From the NCBI RefSeq assembly GCF_900101865.1, contig NZ_FNAH01000007.1, positions 124,001 to 188,000 on the forward strand: DNA of 64,000 nucleotides, written 5' to 3'. The notes under the pieces are model-generated. The model did no database searches. It was not told where the DNA came from and worked only from the letters and a program-made list of their open reading frames with translations. Below, in pieces: positions 9,444 through 62,054 of this stretch. This stretch comes from Paracoccus isoporae (GTDB taxonomy: Bacteria; Pseudomonadota; Alphaproteobacteria; Rhodobacterales; Rhodobacteraceae). The number at the start of each line of letters is the position of its first letter. Positions within the stretch are counted from its first letter, which is position 1. A program made the position numbers and the translations under genes.

Positions 9444-9457
9444 TATGTCTAGACATA
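9444..9457. promoter_or_regulatory. HutC-like operator palindrome
   Basis: TATGTCTAGACATA is a perfect 14-bp palindrome about 40 nt before hutI. Its position and form resemble GntR/HutC-type operators of histidine utilisation operons, where urocanate relieves repression. No hutC gene is in the window, so the regulator would have to act in trans. Confidence 0.65.
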
Positions 9458-9498
9458 TAAGCTGAATATGGCTAAACATAAATGGCAAGGAGGGTCCG

Positions 9499-45292: not shown

Positions 45293-45944
45293 AAAGCCGG
45301 GCGATCTGGGCATCGGTGACGCGGTCTGCCGCCGCGTCGAAGCGGATGCGGCCGTCACGCAGCCCGATGATCCGCGTGGCGAAGCTGCGGGCGAGCGCCA
45401 CGTCATGCAGCGCGATCATCGCCGTCGTGAAGCGCGCGGACAGCAGCGCCATGATCTCCGCAGCCTGCATCGCATCGACGGCCGAGACCGGCTCGTCCGC
45501 AATCAGCATCCCGCCGCCGCGAAACAGCGCCCGCGCCAGGGCAGTGCGCTGCCGCTGGCCGCCCGACAGCGCCTCGACCGGGCTTGTGGCGTGATCCGAA
45601 AGTCCGAGCGGGGCGAGCACCGCCGCGATCTGGTCGCGCAGCCCCCGCGGCAGATAGATCAGCCGCGCGAGATTCCGCACCGCCCCGTGATCGTCCAGCC
45701 GGCCCATATACACATTTCGCCTGAGCGACATTTGCGGCACCAGCCCGTGATCCTGCGGCACAAGGGCCACGCGCTCGTCCCGCGCGATCAACTGGGCGTG
45801 GATCGCCGCCAGCAGCGTCGTCTTGCCCGCGCCCGACGGGCCGAGCAGCACCACGCGCTCTCCCTCCTGCAAGGTCAGGCTGACATCGCGCAGCACCGTC
45901 GCCGCGCCGTAGCCCAGCTCCGCCCCGTCGAGCCGCGCCTTCAT
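45285..45944 (-). CDS. PhnC-type ABC ATP-binding protein
   Basis: This 219-residue ATPase has Walker A (GPSGAGKTT), VEALSGGQRQR and Walker B with IADEPVSAVD. It is shorter than most PhnC proteins. It lies between the binding protein and fused permease genes with overlapping ends, forming a three-gene importer operon. Confidence 0.87.
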   Translation of the reverse strand: MKARLDGAELGYGAATVLRDVSLTLQEGERVVLLGPSGAGKTTLLAAIHAQLIARDERVALVPQDHGLVPQMSLRRNVYMGRLDDHGAVRNLARLIYLPRGLRDQIAAVLAPLGLSDHATSPVEALSGGQRQRTALARALFRGGGMLIADEPVSAVDAMQAAEIMALLSARFTTAMIALHDVALARSFATRIIGLRDGRIRFDAAADRVTDAQIARLYG

Positions 45945-46798
45945 TCCAGCAGGCCCAGCTCCTTGCCGACAGCCTCGATCGGGGCATAGTCGTCATTGTC
46001 GGCGGGAATGAAGCCCGAGCGCGGGAAGCTGGCCAGCAGATCGGGGTCGTCCATGCCGATCAGCGCATCCTGCACCCGGTCGGTGAACCCGTCTCCGAAC
46101 CGCGCATCCACGTCGCCGCGAATGGTCCAGTTGTAATCGGGATAGGGCGGGGTCTTCCAGATGATCCGGGCGGTCTCGACCTCCGGCAGCGCCTCGTCCG
46201 CCGCCTTGTCATAGACCGAGAAATTCAGCGCCCCGATCTCGTAGGCGCCGGTCGAGACCAGCCGCAGGGTCTGGCTGTGATCGCCGGAAAACCCGACGCG
46301 CGAGAAGAATGCGTCCGGCGCCTGCCCGGTCGCCTCGCGGATATGGTATTCGGGCATCAGCCGCCCGGAGGTCGAGGTCTTGGCCCCGAAGGTGAAGCTG
46401 TGGCCCGCCATCTCCATCGGGAAGGTATCGGACCCGGTCAGCCCGGTCTCGGCATTGGCGATGAAATAGGTGACGAACTCGCGGTCCTCCACCCCCTGCG
46501 CGATGGCCGTGGCGCCGGGCGAGACCATGCGCGCCTGCACCCCGGTCAGCCCGCCGAACCAGGCAAGCTGGATCTGGTCGTTGCGAAACGCGGTGACCGA
46601 GGCCGCGTAGCTCTTGACCGGCACGAAGGCGACATCCACGCCCAGCTCGTCCGCCAGATACGCCGCCACCTTGTCGAAGCGCGCCTTCAGCGCCGTATCG
46701 TCCTCATCCGGGATGGCGGAGAAATACAGCGTCTCGGCCTGCGCCGAGGACAGGCCAGCCATCAGGAACGCGGCGGAGAGGAGGGTGCGTAGCGACAT
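45941..46798 (-). CDS. PhnD-like binding protein, putative selenate/oxyanion type
   Basis: This 285-residue periplasmic protein has a signal peptide (1-21) and the phosphonate-binding PhnD fold. FSAIPDEDDTALKARFDKVAAYLADELG and LAWFGGLTGVQARMVSPGATAIAQGVEDREFVTYFIAN match the branch I recall being annotated as a putative selenate ABC transporter binding protein. No selenium genes are visible next to it, so phosphonate, phosphite or another oxyanion remains possible. It begins the operon. Confidence 0.82.
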   Translation of the reverse strand: MSLRTLLSAAFLMAGLSSAQAETLYFSAIPDEDDTALKARFDKVAAYLADELGVDVAFVPVKSYAASVTAFRNDQIQLAWFGGLTGVQARMVSPGATAIAQGVEDREFVTYFIANAETGLTGSDTFPMEMAGHSFTFGAKTSTSGRLMPEYHIREATGQAPDAFFSRVGFSGDHSQTLRLVSTGAYEIGALNFSVYDKAADEALPEVETARIIWKTPPYPDYNWTIRGDVDARFGDGFTDRVQDALIGMDDPDLLASFPRSGFIPADNDDYAPIEAVGKELGLLE

Positions 46799-47499: not shown

Positions 47500-49560
47500 T
47501 CAGCGCAGGGCGGCCTCGATATTGCCACCATCGACGGTCATGACATGGGCCGTGGTGCGCGGCGCGCGGGCGAGCATCACGAAAGCCTGCGCCACGTGCC
47601 CCGCCTCGACCTCGCGGCCCAGCAGATTGCCCGCCATATAGCGCGTCTCGTCCAGCCCGCGCGCGGCCGAACGGGTGCGGATCATCTCGTCGGTCAGCAG
47701 CCCCGAGCGGATCCGGTCGGCATTGACGCCGTTGACCCTGATCCCCTCCGGCCCGAGTTCAAGAGCAAGCTGGCGGAGCAGAAAGAACGTCGCGGCTTTC
47801 GGCAGGCCGTAGGCTCCGAAATTCCGGCCCGGATTCACCGCCTGTTTCGAGACGTTGAACAGGATCTGCCCGGCATCCCGCTCACCGCGCGTCCCACGCC
47901 CTTCGGTATGGCGGCGGAACACGGCGGTGGCCGCCTGCGCGATGGCCTGGTGAGCGAAGAAATTCAGCTCGAAACTCTGCCGCAGCGTCTCGTCCGCCAG
48001 GGTCGCGATCTCGCCGCCTGTCGCCGCCCCGGCATTGGAGACGAGAATATCCAGCCCGCCGAAACGCGCGACGCAGGCCGCCACCGCCTGCGCCGCCGCG
48101 CCATCGGCGGTGATGTCGCAGTGATGGGTTGCGTGGTCGCGGCCAAGCTCGGCGGCGGCGGAGGACAGCGCCTCCGCGTCGCGATCGACGAGGAACAGCG
48201 CAGCCCCCTCCGCCGCGAAGGCCCTGGCAGTGGCCAGCCCGATGGCGCCCGCACCGCCCGTCACCAGCACGATGCGACCGCGAAAACCTGGTACTGCGCC
48301 CCGGCCCAGCTTCGCCTGTTCCAGTGACCAGTATTCCATGTCGAACAGATCGGCCTCGCCAATCGGCCGGAACTCGCCCGCCGCTTCGCCGTCGGACATG
48401 ACCCGCGCGGTCTGGCAGCCGATATCGGCGGCGATGCGGGCTGCGGCGGCATTTGCGCCCACGCCGACGATGCCGCGCCCCGCGATCCAGACCAGGCCGG
48501 GTATGGGCGGCAGCATCGTCTTTGGACTGGCCGCGTTTGGTGCATTGCGCTCGAAATACGTGGTGTAATCGGTTGCAAAATCTGCCACCGCCTTGCGCAT
48601 CGCCCCGGGTCCAGCCTGCTGGATCTCATTTGTGATCACAAGCGGATGCCCCTTGGTGCGGATGACATGGTCGGGCGTTGCCACGCCGCGCCCTGCAAGC
48701 TCCGCCAGATCATCGCGGCAGGTGAAGCCGCGCATCGCCGCATCGTCACGCAGATCCAGCACCGGCAGTGCCGCGCCCTCCGGCAGGCAGGAGGCGAGCG
48801 CGCCCCGCAGCCCCGACAGATCGGGCGGCGGGCCAACAGAGGCCGCCGGGTAAAGCGGCGCCTTGCGCCGCGCGGCCAGCCAGGCCTCGACCTCGTTTGT
48901 CTGCGCCACCAGCCGGTCATAGGATGATTTCGCGTCTGGCCCCCAGGTGAAATGCCCGTGATTGACCAGCAGCAGACCCTCCGCATCGGGGTTGGCCGCA
49001 TAGGCGTCGGCGGCCGCCTTGGCCAGGGCGAAACCCGGCATGATATAGGGCACCAGTGTCAGCCGGTCGCCAAAGATCTCGCGCGTCGCCTCGGCCACTT
49101 CGGGCAGGTTGGCGAGCGTCAGGAAGGCGGTGGCATGGGTGTGATCGACATAGCGATGCGGCAGCCAGGCGTGCAGCAGCGTCTCCACCGAGGGGTTCGG
49201 CGCCGCGCTGTCGAGCAGGTTCGCGCGCTGCACATTCACCATCGCCTCGTCCGACAGCTCGGCAAGCCCGCGCAAACGCGCCAGCGGGGCCATGCGCACG
49301 GCGGGCAGGCCGGCCGCCTCGATCGTCTCCAGATCCCAGCCGGAGCCCTTGATATGCAGCACATCCACCAGATCGCCATAGACATCCCGCGCCTGCGCCT
49401 TCAGCGAGGTGTTGCCGCCGCCATGCATGACCAGATCGGGATCACGACCGATCAGCCGGGAGGAATAGACGCGCAGCGCAAGCTCGCGCGCGGCAGGGTC
49501 GGGACCGGCCCGGTCCTGAAGCTCGCGCGCCTCGTCCTCGTTCCAGCGGTTCTCGATCAT
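47500..49560 (-). CDS. Bifunctional class II sugar-phosphate aldolase / short-chain dehydrogenase (RhaD-ADH type)
   Basis: This 686-residue fusion has an N-terminal class II (zinc) aldolase domain with the MHGGGNTS phosphate motif (45-52) and zinc histidines H140/H142 and H201/H203 regions (HTHATAF, NHGHFTW). A C-terminal SDR domain has TGGAGAIG (434-441), Ser571, Tyr584 and Lys588. In rhamnose operons such fusions cleave rhamnulose-1-phosphate and act on lactaldehyde. Here it is divergent from the SorC gene and near mtnA/mtnK, so a 5-deoxy- or 5-methylthio-ribulose-1-phosphate aldolase with coupled aldehyde oxidation or reduction is a good inference. Confidence 0.88.
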   Translation of the reverse strand: MIENRWNEDEARELQDRAGPDPAARELALRVYSSRLIGRDPDLVMHGGGNTSLKAQARDVYGDLVDVLHIKGSGWDLETIEAAGLPAVRMAPLARLRGLAELSDEAMVNVQRANLLDSAAPNPSVETLLHAWLPHRYVDHTHATAFLTLANLPEVAEATREIFGDRLTLVPYIMPGFALAKAAADAYAANPDAEGLLLVNHGHFTWGPDAKSSYDRLVAQTNEVEAWLAARRKAPLYPAASVGPPPDLSGLRGALASCLPEGAALPVLDLRDDAAMRGFTCRDDLAELAGRGVATPDHVIRTKGHPLVITNEIQQAGPGAMRKAVADFATDYTTYFERNAPNAASPKTMLPPIPGLVWIAGRGIVGVGANAAAARIAADIGCQTARVMSDGEAAGEFRPIGEADLFDMEYWSLEQAKLGRGAVPGFRGRIVLVTGGAGAIGLATARAFAAEGAALFLVDRDAEALSSAAAELGRDHATHHCDITADGAAAQAVAACVARFGGLDILVSNAGAATGGEIATLADETLRQSFELNFFAHQAIAQAATAVFRRHTEGRGTRGERDAGQILFNVSKQAVNPGRNFGAYGLPKAATFFLLRQLALELGPEGIRVNGVNADRIRSGLLTDEMIRTRSAARGLDETRYMAGNLLGREVEAGHVAQAFVMLARAPRTTAHVMTVDGGNIEAALR

Positions 49561-49626
49561 CGGGGCGGGTTCCCTGTGCTGATATCCGTCGGGGCTTGCC
49601 CATCGGCTGGCCAGTGCTATTATTTA

Positions 49627-49650
49627 CAAATGTCAAATATGTCTGTCAAA
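49627..49650. promoter_or_regulatory. Candidate SorC operator 1
   Basis: The half-site CAAATGTCAA (49627-49636) is followed by a second TGTCAAA (49644-49650) in direct orientation. It lies between the divergent aldolase and SorC genes and is identical, over 10 nt, to each arm of the palindrome at 53119-53144. Confidence 0.7.
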
Positions 49651-49667
49651 CGTAGAACAGCCTTGCG

Positions 49668-50642
49668 ATGAACCAGCTCAGCAAGCGCCGGACGATGGGA
49701 CGGGTCAGCGGCGAGAACGCCGTGATCGAGGTCGCATGGCTGTATTACCATGACGGGCTGAACCAGAAGGACATTGCCGAGGCGTTCGGCATCTCCCGCG
49801 CGACCGTGGTGAATTATCTTCAGGAGGCGCGCGAGAAGGGGCTGATCCGCATCACCCTGGCCGCGCCGGCCTTCACCACCCATCGTCTTGCCGCCGAGCT
49901 TTGCCGGAGATTCGGGCTGACCGCCGCCTATGTGGTGCCGGATGAGGGCACGACGCAGGAACAGCAATTCATGCGGGTGGTGCGCGGGGCGGCGCTGTGG
50001 CTGCCGGAATTGCTGGCGCCGGGCGACAGGCTGGGCGTGGCCTGGGGGCGCACCGTGTTCGATCTGGCGGCGGCGCTGGAACGCCACGACATTGCGGACA
50101 TGACCGTGCTGCAGCTTGTCGGCTCGATGGCGACGCCCTACGGGTTCACGGCCGAGGCCTGCTCGACCAGGCTGGCGCAGCGGCTTGGCGCGCGCTGCCT
50201 GAACCTGCACGCGCCGGCCATCCTGTCGTCGGCGGATCTCGCCGCCGCGCTGCGCGCCGAGCCGATCATCTCGCGCCAGCTCGCCGGGATCGAGACGCTG
50301 AACAAGCTGCTGTTCTCGGTCGGCACCATCCTGCCCGACAGCCATATCATGTCCGCCGGGCTGGCGACGCAGGCGGATCTGGATCATTACGTCGCCGCGG
50401 GTGCCGCGGGGGTGATCTGCGGCCGCTTCGTCGATGCCGGGGGCCGCGCCATTCCCGGCCCGATGGAGGCGCGCATGATCGGCATCCCGATGGAGCGTCT
50501 GACCGGCCTGCCGATGGGCATTCTGGTCACGCCGGGGAAGGACAAGGTCGAGGCCAGCATGGCCGCGATCCGGGGCGGCTACGTCACCCATCTTGTGACC
50601 TGCACCACCGTGGCCGAGGCGCTGCTGAGCGCGGCGGGCTGA
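49668..50642 (+). CDS. SorC-family transcriptional regulator
   Basis: This 324-residue protein has an N-terminal helix-turn-helix (WLYYHDGLNQKDIAEAFGISRATVVNYLQEAREKGLI) and a C-terminal SorC/DeoR sugar-phosphate-binding domain. Members such as LsrR and DeoR-type SorC proteins sense phosphorylated sugars. It is divergent from the aldolase gene and convergent with mtnA, in the middle of the pentose locus, so a ketose- or aldose-1-phosphate is a likely effector. Confidence 0.88.
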   Translation: MNQLSKRRTMGRVSGENAVIEVAWLYYHDGLNQKDIAEAFGISRATVVNYLQEAREKGLIRITLAAPAFTTHRLAAELCRRFGLTAAYVVPDEGTTQEQQFMRVVRGAALWLPELLAPGDRLGVAWGRTVFDLAAALERHDIADMTVLQLVGSMATPYGFTAEACSTRLAQRLGARCLNLHAPAILSSADLAAALRAEPIISRQLAGIETLNKLLFSVGTILPDSHIMSAGLATQADLDHYVAAGAAGVICGRFVDAGGRAIPGPMEARMIGIPMERLTGLPMGILVTPGKDKVEASMAAIRGGYVTHLVTCTTVAEALLSAAG

Positions 50643-50660
50643 TGGCGGATCAGCCGCCAT
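50642..50660. terminator. Convergent-end hairpin between the SorC and mtnA genes
   Basis: ATGGCGG and CCGCCAT pair perfectly around ATCAG at the junction of the two convergent genes. No T-run follows, so termination strength is uncertain. Confidence 0.45.
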
Positions 50661-51771
50661 GCCTGCGGTCCTGCGCGGCGTTCTTCAGATCCCCGAACAT
50701 CTGCGCCATGGCGTCGGCATTGGCCGAGCAGATGCCGCGCTCGGTAATCAGCCCCGTCACCAGCTCGGCCGGGGTCACGTCGAAGGCCGGGTTGCGCCCT
50801 TCCGTCCCGTCGGGGCTGATCTGCACGGTGGTGATGCGGCCCTGATCGTCGCGGCCCTGGACATGGGTGATCTCTGCCCCGTCGCGCTCCTCGATCGGGA
50901 TCTCGCGCAGGCCGTCCGTCACCGTCCAGTCGATGGTGGGCGAGGGCAGGGCGACATAGAAGGGCACGTCATTGGCCTTGGCGGCGAGCGCCTTGAGATA
51001 GGTGCCGATCTTGTTGCAGACATCGCCGCGCGCCGTCGTCCGGTCGGTGCCGACGATGACCAGATCCACCTCGCCATGCTGCATCAGATGGCCGCCGGCA
51101 TTGTCCACGATCAGTGAATGCGGCACCCCGGCGCTGTTCAGCTCCCACGCGGTCAGCTGCGCGCCCTGGTTGCGGGGGCGGGTCTCGTCCACGAAGACAT
51201 GGACGGCGATGCCGGCCTCCATCGCGTGGTAGATGGGCGAGGTGGCGGTGCCCCAATCCACCGTGGCGGGCCAGCCGGCATTGCAATGGGTCAGGATATT
51301 GACCGGCGCGCCATCGGGCTTGGCCGCGGCGATCTCGCGGATCAGCGCCAGCCCGTTCTCACCGATGCGGCGGTTGATCTCCACATCTTCCTCGGCGATC
51401 TCGTCGGCGCGGCGAAAGGCGGCCGCGGCGCGGTCGCCGGGCGGCAGCGGGCGCAGCACCCGGTCCATCTCGTCAAGCGCCCAACGCAGGTTGATGGCGG
51501 TCGGCCGCGTCGCGTGCAGGATCTCCCATGTCTCGGAGAGCGCCGCGTCCGACGCATCGCGCCGCATCTGGCAGGCCACGCCGTAGGCCGCCGTCGCCCC
51601 GATCAGCGGCGCGCCGCGCACCCACATGTCGCGGATGGCGGTGGCGAAATCTTCGCGGCTGTCCAGCGGGACGATGCGCAGCTCATGCGGCAGCCAGCGT
51701 TGATCGATGATCCGCACCTCGCCCGCATCGTCGCGCCAGATGGATCGGAAAGGCTTGCCGTCGATCTTCAC
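50650..51771 (-). CDS. mtnA: S-methyl-5-thioribose-1-phosphate isomerase
   Basis: This 373-residue enzyme of the eIF2B-like family converts 5-methylthioribose-1-phosphate (or 5-deoxyribose-1-phosphate) to the ribulose-1-phosphate form. The catalytic pair is present: Cys163 in [12 protein letters not shown] and Asp243 in [24 protein letters not shown]. The RGAPLIG and [17 protein letters not shown] segments are also typical of MtnA. Its start overlaps the mtnK stop by 4 nt, so it is made together with the kinase. Confidence 0.93.
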
Positions 51772-53036
51772 AGGTGATCCTCCGTTCCGGTTCTGCGCGC
51801 CAGTTCCAGCAATGCGCCCATGTCGCTGATGCTGTCGCGGCCGTGGATGGCGGCGGTGCCGAGCGCCAGGGCGCGCGCCTCGCAGGTGGCGCGCCTTGCC
51901 TCGTCAGAGATGGTCTCGAAATCCGCGTTATGGGCCAGCCCGAGGATGCGGCGGTGCATCTCTACCCCGCAAAATCCGAGCGCGTCGCGCCAGATCGCGT
52001 CAAGCCGCCGTGCCAGCGCGACATCGGCCGCCTGGTGATGGCCCTGATCCTCGTAGAGCGTCGCCTGGTAGAGGATGCCGCGGCGCTCCTCGTGCCAGAG
52101 GCGCGAGAACGCCTCGGCGAAGGCCGACCAGATGTCGTCGGTCGCGGCCAGCAGCCAGTCCTGGTAGGTGGCGCGATCCCCCGGTTCGCTCTCATGTCCG
52201 GGCTGTGACATATAGGCCATGAGGAAATTCGAGATCAGCATGCCGATATCGAACCCCATCGGCCCGTAAAAGGCGAATTCCGGGTCGATGACACGGTAAT
52301 CGCCGTCATCCGCGACCATGACCGAGCCGGTATGCAGATCGCCATGCAGCAGCGTCTCGGCGCGGGTGGTGAAGTCCAGCTTCAGCTCCTGCGCCGCGAC
52401 CTTCAGCGCAAGATCGGCGCGCAGCCGCGCCACCGCGGCGTCCAGCCCGGCAGTATGGCGGTTCATCTCGGCATCGAAATACGGGTCGGAGAAGATCAGG
52501 TTCTCGGTGATGTCGCACAGCTCGACATTGCCGCAGAACAGGGCCACATCGGCCTTCTTCTCGGGCGCCTTCATCGACAGATCGGAGCCGCGGAACAGCG
52601 TGCGCGCGCAGAACCGGCCCAGCATCCGGCCCAGCCCGTCATAGCGCCGGGCCTGGATCAGACCCTGGCGCAGGATGATGTGGCGGTCGAGATATTCCAT
52701 CACGATCAGCGCCTGGTCCTCGTCAAAATGGAAGACCTCGGGGACCGCGCCGGGATCGCGCGCCTCCTCCCGGATCAGCGCGTGATATTCGAAGAAGCTG
52801 CGTTTCAGCGGCAGCGGCCAGGATTCTCCGACCAGCCGGACATAGGGCAGGGCCTGCTTGACCACGGCCGCGCCCGCATCGCCGCGCACGATGAAGACAA
52901 GGTTCAGATTTCCGTCGCCCACCTCGGTCACGTCCCAGCCATCGGGCGGGCCGACCCGGTCGGTGAGCGCCGGCAGCGTGCCAAGCCTTTGTGGCAGGGT
53001 GCGGGGTGTCAGCGCCTCATAGGCGGGTTTGGTCAT
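51768..53036 (-). CDS. mtnK: S-methyl-5-thioribose kinase
   Basis: This 422-residue kinase of the aminoglycoside-phosphotransferase/choline-kinase fold phosphorylates 5-methylthioribose at C1. Its features are strongly MtnK-like: the nucleotide loop [11 protein letters not shown] (38-48), KQALPYVR (60-67), the [11 protein letters not shown] catalytic segment, and the metal-binding [16 protein letters not shown] segment. Known MtnK enzymes also take 5-deoxyribose. The ATG at 53036 begins MTKPAYE; the extension to 53141 runs into the operator. It is first in the minus-strand mtnK-mtnA pair. Confidence 0.93.
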
Positions 53037-53118
53037 GTCTCGCCTCCCTCCGGGTGGAGCGCGTCGCGCCGCACCCGTCCTTCGTCGTCGGACAGGGGCA
53101 GGATTTCCGCTCTGAAAG

Positions 53119-53144
53119 CAAATGTCAAACATTATTGACATTTG
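53119..53144. promoter_or_regulatory. SorC-type operator 2, perfect palindrome
   Basis: CAAATGTCAA and TTGACATTTG form a perfect 10-bp inverted repeat with a 6-nt spacer. It lies in the divergent region between mtnK and the sugar ABC ATPase and can control both directions. The arm is repeated in the aldolase/SorC control region, which ties both halves of the locus to one regulator. Confidence 0.8.
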
Positions 53145-53186
53145 TGGAAGCGCGGCGTTAGCGTCGGGACAGAAGGGGGAGATGCC

Positions 53187-54719
53187 GTGCCCGCGAATGC
53201 CATCGCCATTGCCGGTCTGACCAAGTCATTTGCCCGCAACCGGGTGTTGCGCGGCATCGACCTGACCCTGCCCGCCGGTCAGGTGACGGTGCTGATGGGG
53301 GCCAATGGCGCCGGGAAATCCACCCTGGTGAAAATCCTCTGCGGGGTGTTCCGGCCCGATGGCGGCAGCGTCATGCTGGGCGGGCGTCCCTTTGCGCCTG
53401 CCGCGCCGGTCGATGCGCTGCGGGCGGGCGTGGTGACGGTGCATCAGAACATCAACGAAGGCGTCGCGCCCGATCTCGACGTGGCCTCGAACCTGCTGCT
53501 CGACGATCTCGCCTCCGGCTCGGGCTTCTTCCTCAATCGCCGCCGGATGCGGGAGGAGGGGCGGCGGATCGCGGATGCGGTCGGGCTGGATGTCGCGATG
53601 GGGCGCGAGGTGGCGAGCCTCAGCCTCGCCGACCGGCAACTCGTCTCCATCGCGCGGGCCATGGCGCACCGGCCGCGCCTGATGATCCTGGACGAGCCGA
53701 CATCGTCGCTGTCGGCGGCGGAGACCGAGCGGCTTTTCGCGCTGATCGAGCAGTTGAAGGCGGAGGGCGTGGCGATCCTGTATATTTCGCACCGCATGTC
53801 GGATATCCGGCGTCTTGCCGACCGGATCGTGTCGATGCGCGACGGGCAGATATCCGGCACGTTCGAGGGGCGGGATCTGGATTACGCGGGCGCGGTGCGC
53901 GCCATGCTGGGCCATGAGATCACCGAGGTCGATATCCGCATTCCCGACGCCGGAGGCGCGGTGATCGAGGCGGCCGGGATGCGGCTGCGCGAGGGGGCGC
54001 GCCCCTTCGATCTGACGCTGCGCGAGAACGAGGTCGTCGCGGTCGCAGGGCTGGTCGGCTCGGGCAAATCGGCGCTGGCAGAGGCGCTGTTCGGCGTCTC
54101 GGCGCCGGTATCCGGAGAGATGTCGCTGGACGGCAAGCCCTTCCGCCCGAAATCGCCGGGCGATGCGGTGCGGCAGGGCGTGTTCCACCTGTCGAAGGAC
54201 CGGCTGCGCAATGCCGTGATCCCGGATTTCGATATTGCGCGCAACATCACGCTGCCCTTCCTGTCGCGGCATCAGGGGGCGCTTTCGATCATGCGGCGCG
54301 GTTCGGAGCGGGCAACCGCCGCGCGGATGATCGACATGATGGGCGTTGTCTGCCAGGGGCCGCGCGACGAGATCCTGACCCTGTCGGGCGGCAATCAGCA
54401 GAAGGTGGTGGTGGCGCGCTGGCTGGCCGAGCCGTGCCGTCTGCTGATCCTCGACGAGCCGTTCCAGGGCGTCGATATCGAGGCGCGCCGCGATATCGGC
54501 CGCCGCATCCGGGACAGCGCCGCTGACCGCGCGACGCTGGTGCTCTGCGCCGAGATCGACGAGGCGCTGGAGATCGCGGACCGCATCCTGGTGATGAGCG
54601 AGCATTCCATCGCCGGTGCGCACCGCAATGCCGAGATCGACCTCGACCTGCTGATGGCGCAGGTGACCGACACCGCCCCGCCGCCGTCCGGGGGTGCGCA
54701 GCTGGGGGTTGGAACATGA
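53187..54719 (+). CDS. Ribose-type sugar ABC transporter ATP-binding protein (two ABC domains)
   Basis: This 510-residue RbsA/MglA-type ATPase has two fused nucleotide-binding domains. The first has Walker A GANGAGKST and VASLSLADRQLVSIARAMAHRPRLMILDEPTSSLS; the second has the degenerate GLVGSGKSALAEALFG and a TLSGGNQQKVVVARWL signature. It imports a pentose or related sugar with the next two genes. The GTG at 53187 has GGGGGAG five nt upstream; the apparent TTG at 53142 lies within the operator. Confidence 0.92.
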   Translation: MPANAIAIAGLTKSFARNRVLRGIDLTLPAGQVTVLMGANGAGKSTLVKILCGVFRPDGGSVMLGGRPFAPAAPVDALRAGVVTVHQNINEGVAPDLDVASNLLLDDLASGSGFFLNRRRMREEGRRIADAVGLDVAMGREVASLSLADRQLVSIARAMAHRPRLMILDEPTSSLSAAETERLFALIEQLKAEGVAILYISHRMSDIRRLADRIVSMRDGQISGTFEGRDLDYAGAVRAMLGHEITEVDIRIPDAGGAVIEAAGMRLREGARPFDLTLRENEVVAVAGLVGSGKSALAEALFGVSAPVSGEMSLDGKPFRPKSPGDAVRQGVFHLSKDRLRNAVIPDFDIARNITLPFLSRHQGALSIMRRGSERATAARMIDMMGVVCQGPRDEILTLSGGNQQKVVVARWLAEPCRLLILDEPFQGVDIEARRDIGRRIRDSAADRATLVLCAEIDEALEIADRILVMSEHSIAGAHRNAEIDLDLLMAQVTDTAPPPSGGAQLGVGT

Positions 54720-55732
54720 GCAGGGGGTTCGATCCGGTCGAATTCGGCATCCGCTACGGCTTCCTGTTGCTGATGGCGGGGCTGATCGTCGGATTTTCCG
54801 TGGCACAACCGGCCTTCATGTCGGCGCGCAGCGCGGTGTTCATCTTCCAGTCGGTGGCGATCACCGGCATTCTGGCGCTTGGCGTCACCGCGACGCTGGT
54901 GGTCGGCGGGTTCGATCTGTCCATCGGCGCGGTCGCCACCTCATCGATGATGCTTGCTGCCTATGCGCAGGTGATCTGGCAACTCGGCGCCATCGAGGCG
55001 GTGGCGCTGTGCCTGCTGATGGGGGCGGCGGTCGGCTATATCAACGGCGTCCTGATCGTGAAGATGCGGGTGCCCGACCTGCTGGCGACGCTGGGGATGA
55101 TGTTCCTGCTGATGGGACTGCAGCGCATCCCGACCGAGGGGAATTCGATCTCGACCGGCATGGCGCTGCCGGATGGCAGCAACGCCACCGGCACCTTCTC
55201 GCCCTCATTCCTGATGCTGGGCCGTCACCGGCTGGATGTCGTGATCGAGAATCTGCTGCCGCTGTCGGTGGTGTTCCTGATCGCCATTGCCGTGCTGATC
55301 TGGATCTTTCTGGAAATGACCCGGCACGGGCGGATCATGTATGCGATCGGATCGAACGACCGGGCCGCGGCCCTGGCCGGGATCGACGTGAATGGCTATC
55401 GCATCCTGGCCTATGTGATCTCCGGCACGCTGGCCTCTTTCGGGGGGATATTGCTGGCCGCGCGGCTGGGACGCGGCGATGTCGCCTCGGGCAACAACCT
55501 GTTGCTGGACGCGGTCGCGGCGGCGCTGATCGGGTTCGCGGTTCTGGGCGCGGCCAAGCCCAACGCCTTCGGCACCGCCATCGGCGCGCTGTTCGTCGGC
55601 ATCCTGCTGCAGGGGCTGACGATGCTGAACGCGCCCTATTACACGCAGGATTTCATCAAGGGCGCGGTCCTGGTCATTGCGCTCGTCTTTACCTTCGCGC
55701 TGTCCGGCCGTCGCGGCCGGGCGCGGCACTGA
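54716..55732 (+). CDS. Ribose-type sugar ABC transporter permease
   Basis: This 338-residue RbsC-family permease has about ten transmembrane segments and the family signatures GVTATLVVGGFDLSIGAVATSS and GRIMYAIGSNDRAAALAGIDV. It overlaps the ATPase gene by 4 nt (ATGA). It is the only permease of this importer, so it probably works as a homodimer. Confidence 0.92.
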   Translation: MSRGFDPVEFGIRYGFLLLMAGLIVGFSVAQPAFMSARSAVFIFQSVAITGILALGVTATLVVGGFDLSIGAVATSSMMLAAYAQVIWQLGAIEAVALCLLMGAAVGYINGVLIVKMRVPDLLATLGMMFLLMGLQRIPTEGNSISTGMALPDGSNATGTFSPSFLMLGRHRLDVVIENLLPLSVVFLIAIAVLIWIFLEMTRHGRIMYAIGSNDRAAALAGIDVNGYRILAYVISGTLASFGGILLAARLGRGDVASGNNLLLDAVAAALIGFAVLGAAKPNAFGTAIGALFVGILLQGLTMLNAPYYTQDFIKGAVLVIALVFTFALSGRRGRARH

Positions 55733-55758
55733 ACTTCGGGATAACAAGGGAGGAAGCC

Positions 55759-56799
55759 ATGATTTCCAGAAGAACACTGATCGGACTGATGGGCGGCGCG
55801 GCCATGTGGCCCGGGCTGGTGCTGGCGCAGGATGGCGCGCCCGCGCCCTTCGACAATCCGGGCGATGTCAGGATCGCGCTCGTCCGCTATCTGTCCACCG
55901 GCGATTTCTTCCAGGCCTATCTTTCGGGCGTGGAGAAACAGGCTGAGGCGCTCGGCGTGGAATTGCAGGTCTTCGACAGCAGGCAGGACGCGGCGCTACA
56001 GGCCGATATGGTCGATCAGGCCATCGCGCTTGGCGTGGACGGGATCATCATCCAGCACGGGCTGACCGAATCGATGAAGGAGGCCGCGCAGCGCGCCGTC
56101 GATGCGGGCATCAAGGTCGTGGCCTTCGACGTGAATGTCGAGAACGAGGCGATCCCGCAGATCGAGCAGTCCGACCGGGATCTCGCCCGGCTGGCACTGG
56201 AACAGGCGATCGAAGACAATGGCGAGGAGTGGGTCGCGGGCTATGTCTATGTCCCCGGCATCGCACCGCTAGACCGGCGCAACGAGACCTGGGTGGAATT
56301 CAAGGAGACCTATCCCGGCATCACCGAGAAAGCCGCCTTCGGCACGATGGACAACCCCATCGCCAATTCGGTCGCCAATCAGGCGCGTTCTGTCCTGTCG
56401 GCCAATCCCGACATCACGGTGATGTTCGCGCCTTACGACGAATTCGCCAAGGGCGTGAAGATCGCCGTGGACGAGGCCGGGCTGTCGCAGGATGTCTCGA
56501 TCTACTCGGCGGATATCTCCACCGCGGATATCGCGCTGATGCGCGAGGCGGATTCGTCCTGGAAGGCCACGGCCGCGACCAACCCGGCGGTGGTGGGCGA
56601 GGTGTCGGTGCGCACGCTGGCGCAGTATCTCGCCGGTGAAGAGGTCGCCCCGCAGGTCATCGTGCCGCCGACGCTGATTACCCAGGACCAACTCAACGAG
56701 CTGGAGATCACCAATATGGAGGAGCTGGGCGCCAAGCTGCCCGAGTTTGTCCATGCCGACGTGTCGGTGTCGGACTGGATGACACTGCCCGAACGCTGA
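55759..56799 (+). CDS. Sugar ABC transporter binding protein with Tat-like signal
   Basis: This 346-residue type-1 periplasmic binding protein (RbsB-like) carries a signal peptide with a twin-arginine motif (ISRRTLIGLMGG) and a cleavage site near VLAQ, so Tat export is possible. Ligand-pocket segments include DIALVRYLSTGDFFQAY-like start (RIALVRYLSTGDFFQAY) and VAFDVNVENEAIPQ. The gene context points to a pentose such as 5-methylthioribose or 5-deoxyribose. A GGGAGGAAG site precedes the ATG. Confidence 0.9.
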   Translation: MISRRTLIGLMGGAAMWPGLVLAQDGAPAPFDNPGDVRIALVRYLSTGDFFQAYLSGVEKQAEALGVELQVFDSRQDAALQADMVDQAIALGVDGIIIQHGLTESMKEAAQRAVDAGIKVVAFDVNVENEAIPQIEQSDRDLARLALEQAIEDNGEEWVAGYVYVPGIAPLDRRNETWVEFKETYPGITEKAAFGTMDNPIANSVANQARSVLSANPDITVMFAPYDEFAKGVKIAVDEAGLSQDVSIYSADISTADIALMREADSSWKATAATNPAVVGEVSVRTLAQYLAGEEVAPQVIVPPTLITQDQLNELEITNMEELGAKLPEFVHADVSVSDWMTLPER

Positions 56800-56808
56800 T
56801 TGCAACCT

Positions 56809-56830
56809 GCGGGGGCCTGCGGGCCCCCGC
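56809..56830 (+). other. Intra-operon hairpin after the sugar-binding-protein gene
   Basis: GCGGGGGCC and GGCCCCCGC form a perfect 9-bp stem with a 4-nt loop, no T-run, between the binding protein and the split transketolase. It probably separates the expression level of the importer from that of the enzymes. Confidence 0.65.
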
Positions 56831-56850
56831 TCATCCGAACGAGGTCATCC

Positions 56851-57780
56851 TTGCGCAACTCCCGCTCGACCGAAGACATCGCCCTGGGCATCCGTCGCCG
56901 CGTGTTCGAGCATGCGATGCGCAACAATGGCGGCTATCTCAGCCAGGCCTGTTCGGCGGCTGAACAACTGGCGTTTCTGTATAATGAGGCGCTCAATCTC
57001 GGCCCCTCGACCATGCCGATGGTGCCCGAGCCCTTCGGCGGCGTGCCGTCGGCGGAGAACCGGGATTACCGCACCGGGGCCGGATATAACGGCCCCTTCG
57101 ATGCGGTCCATGACCGGCTGTTCATCGCGCCGGCGCATTACGCGCTTGTCGCCTATGCCTGCCTGATCGAGACCGGGCGCATGGCGGCGGAAGGGCTGGA
57201 GATGTTCAACCGCGACGGATCATCCGTCGAGATGATCGGGGCGGAGCATTCGCCGGGCATGGAGGTGCATAACGGCACGCTCGGGATCGGCCTGTCCACC
57301 GGGGCGGGGCTCGCCTACGGGCGCAAGCGGCGCGGTGAGACCGGCGAGGTCTGCGTGTTCATGTCCGACGGCGAGGTGCAGGAAGGCCAGACCTGGGAGG
57401 CGGTGCAGGCCGCCGCCCATCACCGCATCGACAATCTCTGGGCGCTGATGGATGTGAACCGCCAGCAATGCGACGGTGCCATGGACAGCGTTATGGAGGT
57501 GGGCGACATCGCCACGAAGTTCCGCGATTTCGGCGCGGTGGTAGCCGAGGTGGACGCCCATGACCTGGACGCGCTGCGCGAGGCGCGGACCACCCCGCAT
57601 GAGGGCCGGCCGCTGATCGTGCTGGCCCATTCCAGCCCCACCCAGGGCATGGATTTCCTGATGCGGCGTTTCCCGCGCCTGCATTACGTGCGCTTCAAGA
57701 CCGCCGAGGAGCGCGCCGAGATGAACGAGGCCATTGCGGCAGAGCTGGGCATCCCGCCCGTCGAGCTGGAGGCGCATTGA
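56851..57780 (+). CDS. Transketolase, N-terminal (thiamine-diphosphate-binding) subunit
   Basis: This protein of about 309 residues is a stand-alone transketolase N-domain. The ThDP/metal motif appears as FMSDGEVQEGQTWEAVQAA (about 170-188) followed by the paired asparagine near DVNRQQCDG. Catalytic-site histidines in APAHYALVAY and GAEHSPGMEVHNGTLGIGLSTGAGLAYG are visible. Two-chain transketolases are known, including D-apulose-4-phosphate transketolase. The TTG at 56851 is preferred (AACGAGG upstream) over the TTG at 56800, which abuts the hairpin. It is coupled to the C-terminal subunit one nucleotide later. Confidence 0.88.
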   Translation: MRNSRSTEDIALGIRRRVFEHAMRNNGGYLSQACSAAEQLAFLYNEALNLGPSTMPMVPEPFGGVPSAENRDYRTGAGYNGPFDAVHDRLFIAPAHYALVAYACLIETGRMAAEGLEMFNRDGSSVEMIGAEHSPGMEVHNGTLGIGLSTGAGLAYGRKRRGETGEVCVFMSDGEVQEGQTWEAVQAAAHHRIDNLWALMDVNRQQCDGAMDSVMEVGDIATKFRDFGAVVAEVDAHDLDALREARTTPHEGRPLIVLAHSSPTQGMDFLMRRFPRLHYVRFKTAEERAEMNEAIAAELGIPPVELEAH

Positions 57781-57781
57781 G

Positions 57782-58783
57782 ATGGAGATGGTCAACCGCC
57801 CCTATGCCGCCGCCTTCGAGGCCCATGCCGTGGCCAATCCCGACGTGCTGTGCCTGTCCGCCGACCTGACTTCGAGCTGCGAGATCGACGGGTTCCGCGA
57901 CAGGCATCCTGAACAATTCCTTTCGCTGGGCATGGCAGAGCAGAACATGCTCTCCTTTGCCGGCGGACTTGGGCTGGCCGGGTATCGGCCGTTTTTACAC
58001 AGTTTCGGTGTTTTTTTGTACCGCCGACCCTATGACCAGCTCATGGCCTCGATCGCTTATCCGCGCCGCAAGGTGCGGCTGATGGGTTTCCTGCCGGGCG
58101 TGACCACGCCGGGCGGCATGACCCATCAGGCGATCGAGGATCTTTCTGTCATGCGCACCATCCCCAATATGACCGTGCTGGAATCGGGCGACGCGACAGA
58201 GGTGGAAAGCATTGTCGCCGCCGCCGACAGCGTCGATGGCCCGGTCTATTGCCGGGTTCTGCGCGGGTCGGTCCCGCGTCTGTTCGACACGCCGCTGGAA
58301 ATCGGCCGGATGCGGGTGCTGTCCGAAGGCCGCGACGTGCTGGTGGTGACGGCGGGGATCACCACGGAGGAAGCGATCCGGGCACGCGGCGCGCTCGACG
58401 CGGCCGGGGTCTCGGTGCGCCATCTGCATCTGAACACGCTGAAGCCCTTCGACGCGGCGCAGATCGTCGATCATGCATCCTCGGTGCGCCACGGCGTGGT
58501 GACGCTGGAAAACCACCTGGTCACCGGCGGGATCGGCTCGATGGTGGCCGAGGCATTGGCCGAGGCGGGGCTGGGCCGCCGCCTGATCCGGCTGGGGCTT
58601 CAGGACAGCTATGCGCATGGCGGATCGCGCCCCTATCTGATGAAATATTACGGCATGGATGCGCTGACGCTGGTGCGCGCCATCGAGCGGCTGACCGGCG
58701 AGGAGAGCGGCATCGACGAGGATGCGCTCGGCGCGGTGCGGCTGGACGCGGTCCATTCGGCGGTGAAGGCCGAGGCGCTGTGA
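57782..58783 (+). CDS. Transketolase, C-terminal (pyrimidine-binding) subunit
   Basis: This 333-residue protein is the second half of a split transketolase. It has the catalytic glutamate in SLGMAEQNMLSFAGG, the PGGMTHQAIEDLSVMRTIPNM segment, and the C-terminal regulatory domain ending around LENHLVTGGIGSMVAEALAEAG. With the preceding gene it should form a heterotetramer moving two-carbon units between sugar phosphates. The stop overlaps the RuBisCO-like gene start (GTGA). Confidence 0.88.
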   Translation: MEMVNRPYAAAFEAHAVANPDVLCLSADLTSSCEIDGFRDRHPEQFLSLGMAEQNMLSFAGGLGLAGYRPFLHSFGVFLYRRPYDQLMASIAYPRRKVRLMGFLPGVTTPGGMTHQAIEDLSVMRTIPNMTVLESGDATEVESIVAAADSVDGPVYCRVLRGSVPRLFDTPLEIGRMRVLSEGRDVLVVTAGITTEEAIRARGALDAAGVSVRHLHLNTLKPFDAAQIVDHASSVRHGVVTLENHLVTGGIGSMVAEALAEAGLGRRLIRLGLQDSYAHGGSRPYLMKYYGMDALTLVRAIERLTGEESGIDEDALGAVRLDAVHSAVKAEAL

Positions 58784-59910
58784 GCCGGTTTTCCGTCACC
58801 TACGGGATCCGTGCGTCGGATCCGGCTGATGCGCGCGCGCGGGCCGAGGCGATTGCCCTGGAACAGACCGTCGAAGTGCCGCGCGCCGTGGTGCCGGAGG
58901 GCCATATCGCCGATGAGATCGTCGGCCGCATCGAGGAAATCGGCAGCGCGGGCGCGGGTGTGTATCACGCCACGATCAGCTATGCGCCCGACAGCGCGGG
59001 CGACGAGATCACGCAGTTTCTCAACGTGATCTTCGGCAACAGCTCGATCCAGCAGGGCATAAGGGTCATCGCGATTGATCCGGGCGATGAGATGGCCCGG
59101 CGCTTCCCCGGCCCGCGCTTTGGCATCGCGGGGCTGCGCCGGCTGACCGGACGCCGGTCCGGCGGCATGATCTCCCCGGTGCTCAAGCCGATGGGGCTGT
59201 CACCGGGGGCGTTCGCCGAACTCGCCGCCGGTTGCGTGCGGGGCGGCGCGGACATCGTGAAGGAGGATCACGGGCTGGCCGGTCAGCCGACCGCGCCGTT
59301 CCGACCGCGCGTGGAGGCGGTGGCGGAGGCGGTGCGCAAGGCGAATGCGGCGGAGGGCCGATCGGCGCTGTATTTTCCCAACCTCTCCGGCCGGGTGGAT
59401 GAGATCTCCGAAAATCTGCGCTTTGCCAAACAGGCCGGGGCAGGGGGGATCCTTGTCATGCCGGGCCTTTACGGTTTCGGGGTGGTGGACCGCATCGCCC
59501 GCGACGCAGAATTTGACCTGCCGGTGATGACCCATCCCGCCTTTCTCGGACCCTATGTGCTGGCGGCGGACACAGGGATCGCCCATGGTGTCATGTTCGG
59601 CACGATCCAGCGGCTCGCCGGGGCCGATATCTCGGTCTTTCCGAATGTCGGCGGCCGGTTCGGCTTCAGCGCCGGCGAGTGCCACGAGATTGCCGATCAC
59701 TGCCGCGACGCGGGCGGGCCGGGGCGGCCGATCCTGCCCAGCCCCGGCGGGGGGATGAGCGTGGACCGGGCCGCCGACATGGTCCGCATGTATGGCCCGG
59801 ACGTGGTCTATCTGCTTGGCGGCAGCCTGCTTGCCGATCCGCCGCGGATCGACCGCGCGGTGGCTGCGATGCGCCGCGCCGTCGATGCCGCGGATGCGGC
59901 GGGGGCCTGA
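58780..59910 (+). CDS. RuBisCO-like protein (form IV), sugar-phosphate enolisation enzyme
   Basis: This 376-residue protein is a RuBisCO large-subunit relative without carboxylase signatures. The loop-2 metal site reads K161-E-D163-H164 (carbamylatable Lys and Asp kept, Glu replaced by His). K136 in PVLKPMGLSP matches the active-site lysine but the next KPK lysine is missing. Loop 6 reads GGRFGFS with arginine in place of the carboxylase lysine. Phosphate-binding SPGGGMS (321-327) and LLGGSLLAD are kept. Form IV relatives isomerise methylthioribulose-1-phosphate or decarboxylate 3-oxo-isoapionate-4-phosphate. The GTG start is coupled to the transketolase stop. Confidence 0.93.
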   Translation: MSRFSVTYGIRASDPADARARAEAIALEQTVEVPRAVVPEGHIADEIVGRIEEIGSAGAGVYHATISYAPDSAGDEITQFLNVIFGNSSIQQGIRVIAIDPGDEMARRFPGPRFGIAGLRRLTGRRSGGMISPVLKPMGLSPGAFAELAAGCVRGGADIVKEDHGLAGQPTAPFRPRVEAVAEAVRKANAAEGRSALYFPNLSGRVDEISENLRFAKQAGAGGILVMPGLYGFGVVDRIARDAEFDLPVMTHPAFLGPYVLAADTGIAHGVMFGTIQRLAGADISVFPNVGGRFGFSAGECHEIADHCRDAGGPGRPILPSPGGGMSVDRAADMVRMYGPDVVYLLGGSLLADPPRIDRAVAAMRRAVDAADAAGA

Positions 59911-60051: not shown

Positions 60052-60092
60052 AACTATGTCCGACATAGTTGTTGATTTTGTCAGACATAGTT
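60052..60092. promoter_or_regulatory. Tandem GntR operators
   Basis: AACTATGTC-C-GACATAGTT (60052-60070) is a 9-bp inverted repeat with one central base. A second copy, TTGTC-A-GACATAGTTGT, follows at 60078-60092. The two sites lie just upstream of the GntR gene and probably mediate autoregulation of the GntR-PLP-ABC operon. Confidence 0.7.
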
Positions 60093-60127
60093 GTAACCTG
60101 CCAGAAGCAGGGAGGAAAACGCCGCCA

Positions 60128-60859
60128 ATGGCCGACATCTCGACATCCGCCGATGCCATGTTGCAGCACGCGAGGCGCATCGAGACCGGGCGCGACATGC
60201 TGGAGACGCTGGCCGGGCTGGTCGAACTGGCCGGGCTGAAGGTCGGGGATCGTCTGCCGCCGGAGATCGAGCTGGCGCGGCGGTTGGGGGTCAGCCGCTC
60301 GAAGGTGCGCGAGGCGCTGATGTCCTGGCAGAAGATGGGCATCGTCACCCGCAACAAGGGGGCCGGCACGGTGCTGGCCGCCGAGGTGACGAGCGGTTCG
60401 ATCCACCTGCCGCTGCATCTCAAGATCGAGGCGGAGAGCCTGCTGCGCACCCATGCCGTGCGCCGCCCGCTGGAGATCGAGGCCGCGCGGCTGGCGGCGG
60501 AACATGCCACACCGCAGCAGCGGCGCGAGATCAGGGCGCGCATGACCGAATTGCTGGCGGTGTATGAGGCGGGCGAGGATTGGCGCGACAGCGACCACCG
60601 CTTTCACAACGCGATCCACGCCGCCAGCGGCAACCCGCTGTTCGGGCAGTTCATCACCCAGATCCAGCGGGCCTTTGACAGCGTCTATACCGCGCCGCTC
60701 GGCAAGCCGCAGCTTGGACAGGCGACGATCCCGATGCACCGCCCGCTGGCCGAGGCGATCGTGTCCGGCGACGCGCCGCGCGCCTCCCGGATCATGGCCG
60801 CGATCCTCGACCATGTGGCGGAGGATGTGGCTCGCGAAATGGAGGCCGCGCGTGGATAA
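60128..60859 (+). CDS. GntR-family regulator with FCD domain
   Basis: This 243-residue regulator has a GntR winged helix (LPPEIELARRLGVSRSKVREALMSWQKMGIVTRNKGAGTVL) and a C-terminal FCD helical domain (DHRFHNAIHAASGNPLF, IPMHRPLAEAIVSGDAPRA) for an acidic or small-molecule effector. It heads an operon with a PLP enzyme and a sugar importer. The ATG at 60128 is 12 nt beyond GGAGG, a somewhat long spacing. Overlaps the next gene by 8 nt. Confidence 0.87.
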   Translation: MADISTSADAMLQHARRIETGRDMLETLAGLVELAGLKVGDRLPPEIELARRLGVSRSKVREALMSWQKMGIVTRNKGAGTVLAAEVTSGSIHLPLHLKIEAESLLRTHAVRRPLEIEAARLAAEHATPQQRREIRARMTELLAVYEAGEDWRDSDHRFHNAIHAASGNPLFGQFITQIQRAFDSVYTAPLGKPQLGQATIPMHRPLAEAIVSGDAPRASRIMAAILDHVAEDVAREMEAARG

Positions 60860-62024
60860 CCCGACCACCCCCACCGATCCGCGCATCGCCACGCTGCTGG
60901 CCGAACCCCACCGCCCGGATGGCGGCATCGACGCGGCGGTGCCGCCCATCGTTCAGACCTCGCTCTTCACCTTCGCCGATTACGTCGCCTTCGAGGCGCG
61001 CATGTCCGGGCAGAGCGACAGCCCGATCTACACCCGCGTCCAGAACCCGACCGTCGCGGCGTTCGAGGATCTGATGGCGCGCGCCGAGCGGGCAGAGGCC
61101 GCGATCGGATTCGCCTCGGGCATGGCGGCGATTTCGGCCACGCTTCTGTCGCTGTTGCGGCCGGGGGACCGGCTGGCCTGCGTCACCCATGTCTATTCCG
61201 ACGCGTTCCGGCTGATGGAGACGCATCTGCGGCCCTTCGGCATCGAGATCAGCTATCACGATCCCTGCGCCTTCGCGGATGACCCCGAACTTCTGTCCGG
61301 CGTGCAGCTGGCCTATCTGGAAAGCCCCGGCTCGATGATGATGCGGATGATGGATCTGCCCAGGATCGCGCGTCACGCCCGGCGGCACGGCACCATCACG
61401 GTGATCGACAACACCTGGGCGACGCCGGTGCTTCAGCAGCCAATCACCCATGGCATCGACGTCTCGCTTCATTCGGCCTCGAAATATATCGGCGGGCATT
61501 CCGATACGGTGGCGGGCGTGGTCTGCACCAGTGCAGAGATCGCGGCGCGGATCCGCAGCCACGCGCTGACGCTGTTCGGGGCCAAGCTGGCGCCGTTCGA
61601 GGCGTTCCTGCTGACCCGCGGATTGCGCAGCCTGGACGCGCGGATGCGCCAGCATCAGCGCAGCGCCGCGCAGTTCGTGGCGGGGCTGGAGACGCGGCCC
61701 GAGGTCACGGCGATCCACGCGCCGGGGCCGGCGCCGGAGATGGGGCTGAATGGCCGGTCCGGCCTGCTCTCCATCGAGTTGCGCGAGGCGGTGGATATTC
61801 CGCGCTTCGCGGATGCGCTGAAGCTGTTCCGGCTCGGGGTGAGCTGGGGCGGCTTCGAGAGCCTGATCCTGCCGGCCGGGGTCGGGCTGGCGCAGGCTGC
61901 GGACCCCAATCCGATGCGCCATTTCGGCGTGCCGCCGCGCCTCGTCCGGCTGAGCCTCGGGCTGGAGGACCCAGACGATCTCTGGCGCGATTTCTGTGCC
62001 GCGCTGGATGCGGCCCGGACCTGA
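60852..62024 (+). CDS. PLP-dependent cystathionine-lyase/synthase-family enzyme
   Basis: This 390-residue enzyme belongs to the Cys/Met metabolism PLP family (cystathionine beta-lyase, gamma-synthase, methionine gamma-lyase). The PLP lysine is in SLHSASKYIGGHSDTVAGVV, the cofactor-binding segments FASGMAAISATLLSLL and the substrate segment YTRVQNPTVAAFEDLMARAE are intact. It starts with GTG inside the GntR gene end. Its association with a sugar importer is unusual; a C-S or C-O lyase acting on an imported conjugate is one possibility. Confidence 0.88.
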   Translation: MDNPTTPTDPRIATLLAEPHRPDGGIDAAVPPIVQTSLFTFADYVAFEARMSGQSDSPIYTRVQNPTVAAFEDLMARAERAEAAIGFASGMAAISATLLSLLRPGDRLACVTHVYSDAFRLMETHLRPFGIEISYHDPCAFADDPELLSGVQLAYLESPGSMMMRMMDLPRIARHARRHGTITVIDNTWATPVLQQPITHGIDVSLHSASKYIGGHSDTVAGVVCTSAEIAARIRSHALTLFGAKLAPFEAFLLTRGLRSLDARMRQHQRSAAQFVAGLETRPEVTAIHAPGPAPEMGLNGRSGLLSIELREAVDIPRFADALKLFRLGVSWGGFESLILPAGVGLAQAADPNPMRHFGVPPRLVRLSLGLEDPDDLWRDFCAALDAART

Positions 62025-62054
62025 GAAAATACATAATCAAAGGGAGGAAACACC

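Follow-up and report, generated by a model that had tools for sequence, protein, structure and literature searches.

In the analyzed stretch of the Paracoccus isoporae genome (64 kb in full, hereafter the window), positions 47500-59910 hold ten genes that, on balance, we read as a single regulon for catabolism of a 5-substituted ribose. It would join the dihydroxyacetone phosphate (DHAP) shunt to a second branch, in which a RuBisCO-like protein (RLP) generates a 1-substituted xylulose-5-phosphate and a dedicated split transketolase (TK) replaces the cupin that follows the RLP in the methylthioadenosine (MTA)-isoprenoid shunt. Family-model searches of the window's proteins confirmed, at the stated coordinates, every gene that a sequence-only reading of this DNA had named (MtnK, MtnA, an aldolase fusion, a SorC regulator, an importer, a split transketolase and an RLP). 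The features of the locus are as follows, with model scores given against their cut-offs.

47500-49560, minus strand: bifunctional class II aldolase/short-chain dehydrogenase (SDR), assigned to the DHAP-shunt branch (NF006192 'bifunctional aldolase/short-chain dehydrogenase', 841.5 bits against 639; PF00596 and PF00106).
49628-49651, no strand: weaker copy of the palindromic operator, in the aldolase/SorC intergenic region (15.8 bits, second of two window sites at or above 8 bits).
49668-50642, plus strand: SorC/DeoR-type sugar-binding transcriptional regulator (PF04198, 184.7 bits against 27; best NCBIfam model DeoR, 182.7 bits, below cut-off).
50650-51771, minus strand: MtnA, 5-methylthioribose-1-phosphate isomerase family (TIGR00512, 425.7 bits against 279; single copy in the genome).
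51768-53039, minus strand: MtnK, 5-methylthioribose kinase family, start corrected to 53039 (TIGR01767, 482.7 bits against 275; solved relatives 2pyw and 2olc).
53120-53143, no strand: palindromic operator AAATGTCAA-N6-TTGACATTT, between mtnK and the importer (41.6 bits, best of the two window sites).
53187-54719, plus strand: sugar ATP-binding cassette (ABC) transporter ATPase, corrected start most likely the GTG at 53187 (PF00005; AraG/YtfR-type NCBIfam models best, all below cut-off).
54716-55732, plus strand: sugar ABC transporter permease (PF02653, 135.8 bits).
55759-56799, plus strand: sugar-binding protein of the importer (PDB 4ry8, 1.3e-59 by sequence and 1.2e-28 by fold).
56851-57780, plus strand: TKN, N-terminal half of the split transketolase, corrected start most likely the TTG at 56851 (PF00456, 57.8 bits, above cut-off; best solved relative 6yak).
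57782-58783, plus strand: TKC, C-terminal half of the split transketolase (PF02779 and PF02780, each above cut-off; best solved relative 6yaj).
58780-59910, plus strand: RLP, proposed pentulose-1-phosphate 1,3-isomerase (PF00016, 77.0 bits against 30.1; best relative 3qfw; in a clade with cupin-associated RLPs).

The second branch begins with the RLP, whose nearest solved relative, both by sequence and by fold prediction (mean pLDDT 90.2), is 3qfw, titled as a Rhodopseudomonas palustris RLP. According to the excerpted text of PMC5893883, R. palustris has two such proteins, RLP1 and RLP2, and RLP1 converts 5-(methylthio)ribulose-1-phosphate to 1-(methylthio)xylulose-5-phosphate and 1-(methylthio)ribulose-5-phosphate at 3:1, with a cupin acting next. 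As 2qyg is titled rlp2, 3qfw would by elimination be RLP1. Six active-site residues of the P. isoporae protein (K136, K161, D163, H164, H252 and R293) are shared by 3qfw, by all 14 cupin-type RLPs and by 34 or 35 of the 35 TK-type RLPs; Bacillus MtnW has E and S at the positions of H164 and R293. A 66-row tree places TK-type and cupin-type RLPs on one side, with MtnW and other RLPs apart (100/96), and the sister group of its cupin clade consists of three TK-type RLPs (98/89), two being from Rhizobiaceae; MtnW and a Vibrio RLP (L132) are long branches in this tree and its deep joins are unsure. Clade and residues together make it likely that the RLP is a 1,3-isomerase of the 5-methylthioribulose-1-phosphate isomerase type.

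Three other identities for this protein were rejected. It falls short of the models for MtnW (TIGR03332, 135.4 bits against a cut-off of 513.6, with H164 and R293 differing) and for the D-apionate RLP OiaX (NF042437, 77.3 against 700). The metal site of true RuBisCO is K-D-D-E; here the corresponding residues read K161-E-D163-H164, and no match to the N-terminal domain PF02788 is found in the genome.

What accompanies such RLPs points to a TK in the position of the cupin. Across a class-level sample of 385 genomes, 16 other genomes carry an RLP at E ≤1e-30, of which 13 adjoin a cupin, 2 adjoin a TK and 1 lies at a contig end; none of 14 cupin loci examined matches both the cupin and TKC. The P. 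isoporae genome, 99.99% complete, has no match to a cupin of the MTA-isoprenoid-shunt type, whereas the same query matches beside those 13 RLPs, which serve, by another program, as positive control for this null.

The RLP and TK genes are also consistently linked. From an order-level sample of 292 genomes, 41 have an RLP match at E ≤1e-20, and 20 of these, the window's genome included, form a close group with RLP identity of at least 51%. TKN, TKC and RLP, which in the window come after the importer genes on the same strand, are adjacent in all 19 other members, an arrangement not due to chance. Their stretches of 14-20 kb also contain MtnK and MtnA in 17 of the 19 and the binding protein in 16; the two genomes lacking MtnK nearby (G020 and G023) lack it genome-wide. 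From a scan of named genomes we further kept the best 80 of 254 relatives (named loci), which overlap the 19 close-group loci with contigs in part the same, all being mutually related. In 77 of the 80, TKC is at most 100 bases from RLP and shares its strand; MtnA is present in 69, MtnK in 65 and an aldolase of either kind in 56; most named loci extend about 10 kb to each side of RLP, and an aldolase counted as missing may sit just outside. For the 58 loci with at least 9 kb on each side, the counts are TKC 55, MtnA 55, MtnK 52, binding protein 51, SorC-type regulator 50 and aldolase 43. On plasmids of two Rhizobiaceae (Pararhizobium qamdonense and NT-25), mtnK, mtnA, TKN, TKC and RLP are consecutive on one strand. 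The unity and conservation of the locus are well supported, and the sequence-only reading's view of RLP and TK as a further branch finds support. The locus is nonetheless patchy, since a close RLP occurs in only 1 of 20 same-genus genomes, that of the window (three others have remote matches, 26-27%).

The two halves of the locus appear to share an operator as well. Of 62 mtnK-to-importer regions, the window's included, 53 contain the exact palindrome GTCAA-N6-TTGAC. We trained a matrix on 36 different sites from these regions, which makes the 53 of 62 circular and leaves the TKN and aldolase regions as the test. Taking 12 bits as the threshold, a value of our choosing, we see sites upstream of 21 of 39 separately placed TKN genes, compared with 9 of 553 random windows and 2 of 780 shuffles, and in 35 of 48 aldolase/SorC regions, compared with 9 of 813 and 2 of 960. 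When the whole 64-kb window is scanned at 8 bits or more, only 53120 and 49628 emerge, the two divergent promoters of the locus. Because the palindrome precedes both halves, they look like one regulon; the shared operator is well supported by these sequence comparisons, and the SorC-type protein probably binds at it. The sequence-only reading had treated unrelated expression of the two halves as a result that would count against it; at the sequence level, this palindrome and the mtnK-to-RLP run of the two plasmids instead argue for their connection.

A transport and entry route upstream of both branches can be read from the remaining genes. By sequence, the binding protein is closest to 4ry8 (1.3e-59), titled '5-methylthioribose transporter solute binding protein TLET_1677 from Thermotoga lettingae TMO', then to 5ulb (6.8e-40), a Yersinia enterocolitica sugar transporter whose title gives no ligand, and then to ribose-binding protein (6e-19). 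The same order results when the fold is predicted from eight sequences (mean pLDDT 79.7). This agrees with the import of a 5-substituted ribose suggested by the sequence-only reading; the type of importer is well supported, and, at 36-37% identity to 4ry8, specificity of the 5-methylthioribose (MTR) type is likely. A mutarotase gene of the RbsD/FucU type occurs in 21 of the 80 named loci, which fits a free sugar as the substrate; excerpts of PMC6079011 likewise describe a fucose-mutarotase homolog in one 5-deoxyribose cluster. MtnK and MtnA score above curated cut-offs, and a class II aldolase domain, which may cleave the pentulose-1-phosphate to DHAP, is fused to the SDR; the DHAP-shunt interpretation already given to these genes is supported. 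The aldolase had been described as RhaD-type and fused to a dehydrogenase: the fusion stands, as NF006192 is passed, but the RhaD label is too specific, the named rhamnose enzyme RhaD_aldol-ADH (TIGR02632) scoring 419.3 bits, below its cut-off of 567.75.

MtnK and MtnA could also have belonged to a complete methionine salvage pathway. This was ruled out, as models for mtnB, mtnC and mtnD match nothing in the genome, extending to its whole length an absence previously noted only for the neighborhood. Nor does the local lack of mtnP or an MTA phosphorylase hide one elsewhere: three phosphorylase-superfamily genes lie on other contigs (an MTA/S-adenosylhomocysteine (SAH) nucleosidase, a purine-nucleoside phosphorylase and an AMP nucleosidase), and none reaches an MtnP cut-off. 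Given the MTA/SAH nucleosidase (TIGR01705, 312.1 bits against 152.2), MTR may also arise inside the cell.

Both TK halves have the split transketolase of Carboxydothermus hydrogenoformans (6yaj/6yak), likewise encoded by two genes, as best solved relative. Aligned with E. coli TktA, they keep H66, D155, N185, H261, R358, S385, E411, H473 and R520. Of these, we take D155, N185, E411, H66 and H473 to form the thiamine diphosphate site, so the cofactor is expected. TKC falls short of the model for 1-deoxyxylulose-5-phosphate (DXP) synthase (TIGR00204, 150.8 bits against 465.95). The same TK (76-77% identical) occurs with no RLP nearby in Marinovum, Paracoccus seriniphilus and G021, nesting among RLP-associated TKs in a quick tree with long branches. 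In the first two its neighbors are an FGGY kinase, a dehydrogenase, a class II aldolase, a molybdopterin oxidoreductase and a sulfatase; for Marinovum, the top models, xylulokinase and S/N-oxide reductase (bisC_fam), do not reach their cut-offs, and the P. seriniphilus identities are those of the record annotation. G021 also has the reductase. A xylulokinase-type kinase would place phosphate at C5 directly, making the RLP unnecessary, in agreement with a pentulose-5-phosphate as TK substrate. We find it plausible, and somewhat favored, that the TK of the locus acts on the RLP product.

In several relatives, the RLP-TK pair appears to have a different source of substrate. Two loci (L099 and L110) hold TKN-TKC-RLP with a SorC-type regulator, a purine-nucleoside phosphorylase above cut-off, a TRZ/ATZ-type deaminase and MtnA (its family model run for L099), and their genomes have no MtnK. 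The best models for the deaminase, 5′-deoxyadenosine deaminase among them, are all below cut-off. By its gene content, this arrangement reads as nucleoside to ribose-1-phosphate, then MtnA, then RLP-TK. Such a deaminase and phosphorylase also lie directly upstream of RLP in L081 and L092, and L106 has a phosphorylase and MtnA; RLP-TK thus stays with MtnA whatever the source of ribose-1-phosphate. L081, L092 and L097 have no TK beside RLP, and TKN-TKC is found elsewhere in their genomes (TKC 76-77% identical); at one of these unlinked TKs (L188), the neighbor is a partial S/N-oxide reductase gene. In L110, a 779-aa AceE/transketolase-like protein (8308-10647) comes right after RLP and might act next on the two-carbon unit.

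Taken in order, the importer, judged by its relatives, would bring in the sugar, most likely MTR and/or 5-deoxyribose. Going by their families, MtnK would phosphorylate C1 and MtnA would isomerize the product to a ribulose-1-phosphate. From there, the aldolase/SDR would yield DHAP and an aldehyde, which its SDR half may oxidize or reduce, as in the DHAP shunt. Alternatively, the RLP would shift the carbonyl by 1,3-isomerization to give 1-methylthio- or 1-deoxy-xylulose-5-phosphate. We conjecture that the split TK then breaks the C2-C3 bond, releasing glyceraldehyde-3-phosphate and leaving a two-carbon unit on thiamine diphosphate, and so stands in for the cupin methylsulfurylase of the MTA-isoprenoid shunt. 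Comparable eliminations are the loss of water in phosphoketolase and of sulfite in sulfoacetaldehyde acetyltransferase. By analogy, a TK cleaving 1-methylthioxylulose-5-phosphate might release methanethiol by beta-elimination while the two-carbon unit is still bound, and would then be a new kind of thiamine enzyme; we hold this to be doubtful. If true, methylthioribose would become glyceraldehyde-3-phosphate, an acetyl unit and methanethiol, with neither oxygen nor a cupin.

Several observations weigh against the reading of the locus as one regulon with a TK in place of the cupin. RLP identity to 3qfw is only 37-38%, and for 18 of the 39 separately placed TKN genes no upstream site reaches the threshold. 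At TktA H26, H100, H461 and D469, presumably substrate residues, the TK has Y, I, F and G, and with these four changes a donor resembling xylulose-5-phosphate may not bind in the usual way. Loss of H461 was considered as the mark of a donor lacking a C1 hydroxyl and dropped, as we take this residue to bind phosphate and as other split transketolases have lost H100 too. The TK beside the reductase fragment in L188 may serve another pathway. On a Vibrio nigripulchritudo plasmid (L132 4296-17667), a diverged TKN-TKC-RLP (RLP 33%, TKC 51.5% identity) stands with two xylulokinase-type kinases, an SDR and a sugar importer, with no MtnK or MtnA nearby; this co-occurrence of kinases and RLP-TK weakens the argument from the kinase above. 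Finally, among the relatives' loci we found no conserved neighbor able to take up the two-carbon unit.

The altered substrate pocket would also suit a TK that, instead of cleaving the RLP product, uses 5-deoxyribose as acceptor, much as the promiscuous transketolase of Synechococcus elongatus forms 7-deoxysedoheptulose from it (PMC8102628, in excerpt). The TK halves, however, lie directly 5′ of RLP, with TKC there in 77 of the 80 named loci, and TK is never in the same locus as the cupin that uses the RLP product, which makes this role unlikely. It is less probable still that RLP and TK handle a substrate other than that of MtnK and MtnA, such as a branched or oxidized pentose. Pathways for D-apiose and D-apionate do use split transketolases, and RLP-TK is found with no MtnK in the entire genome in 7 of nine genomes picked for having none near RLP. 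RLPs are described as acting on 3-oxo-isoapionate-4-phosphate in D-apiose catabolism (PMC6302742, in excerpt). Against this stand the poor OiaX score, the single mtnK-mtnA-TKN-TKC-RLP run of the two plasmids and the several MtnK-less genomes that have MtnA with a phosphorylase. Most improbable to us is that two unrelated modules, the DHAP shunt with its importer and an RLP-TK operon, became neighbors by chance or shared transfer: at least 19 relatives keep RLP-TK in its own unit or on the opposite strand, and the locus is patchy within the genus, but the conserved linkage, the contiguous run and the common palindrome all speak for one system.

The favored single regulon resembles several known systems in part. 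Like the DHAP shunt and 5-deoxyribose disposal (MtnK or DrdK, MtnA or DrdI, Ald2 or DrdA), it has a kinase, an isomerase and a class II aldolase. DHAP-shunt clusters with sugar transporters are reported in excerpts of PMC6079011, and an E. coli 5-deoxyribose operon under a DeoR-family repressor in those of PMC12632272. In the window, though, the aldolase is fused to an SDR, and an RLP and a split TK are added that have no counterpart in these excerpted accounts. As in the MTA-isoprenoid shunt of Rhodospirillum rubrum and R. palustris (MtnP, MtnA, RLP and cupin), MtnA would feed an RLP that matches the one there in clade and active-site residues; unlike there, no such cupin is found in the genome, a split TK lies beside RLP, and the substrate would enter through import and MtnK in place of MtnP. 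MtnW-based methionine salvage shares MtnK, MtnA and the use of an RLP, but includes MtnB, MtnC and MtnD, absent here, and an RLP with E and S in place of H164 and R293. The C. hydrogenoformans TK differs in gene context and at the TktA H461 and D469 positions (F and G here; L and G, against H and D, in the 6yaj alignment). Our searches of open-access papers gave no report joining an RLP, a split transketolase and MtnK/MtnA; relative to this literature, subscription papers on RLPs being outside its scope, the gene combination appears novel.

MTA is made by cells in general and 5-deoxyadenosine by many. Bacteria excrete sugars derived from both, whose users and routes are only partly known. If our interpretation is correct, the RLP-TK pair, which recurs in many Alphaproteobacteria, would be a third route after MtnA, beside aldolase and cupin, and would assign a role to many RLPs and split transketolases that so far have none. 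It would also bear on the origin of the MTA-isoprenoid shunt, whose RLPs branch among TK-associated ones in our tree, and perhaps add a source of methanethiol.

Some further features touch the locus or its relatives. A bisC-type S/N-oxide reductase, full or fragmentary, lies beside the same TK in L130 (4831-15002), L131 (7423-16701), L177 (4801-10149) and L188, and beside RLP-TK in L106 (681-11131); L106, L130 and L131 also have sulfatases, and these neighbors hint that related sugars may be met as sulfoxides or sulfate esters. In the gap that separates the binding-protein gene from TKN lies a perfect 9-bp GC-rich hairpin with a loop of 4 and no T run (56809-56830), which could adjust importer transcript levels relative to those of the enzymes. 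The stretch 3′ of RLP (60056-63314) encodes a FadR-type regulator, a pyridoxal-phosphate (PLP) enzyme and a sugar-binding protein. The PLP enzyme belongs to the methionine gamma-lyase/cystathionine lyase group (NF004627, 514.8 bits against 508); a role for this lyase-like gene (60864-62024) in methanethiol use was considered and dropped, as it has a match in only 1 of the 80 named loci (L110). At 43796-46798 lie PhnCDE-like ABC genes, whose binding protein passes the 'putative selenate ABC transporter' model (TIGR04553, 368.0 bits against 250).

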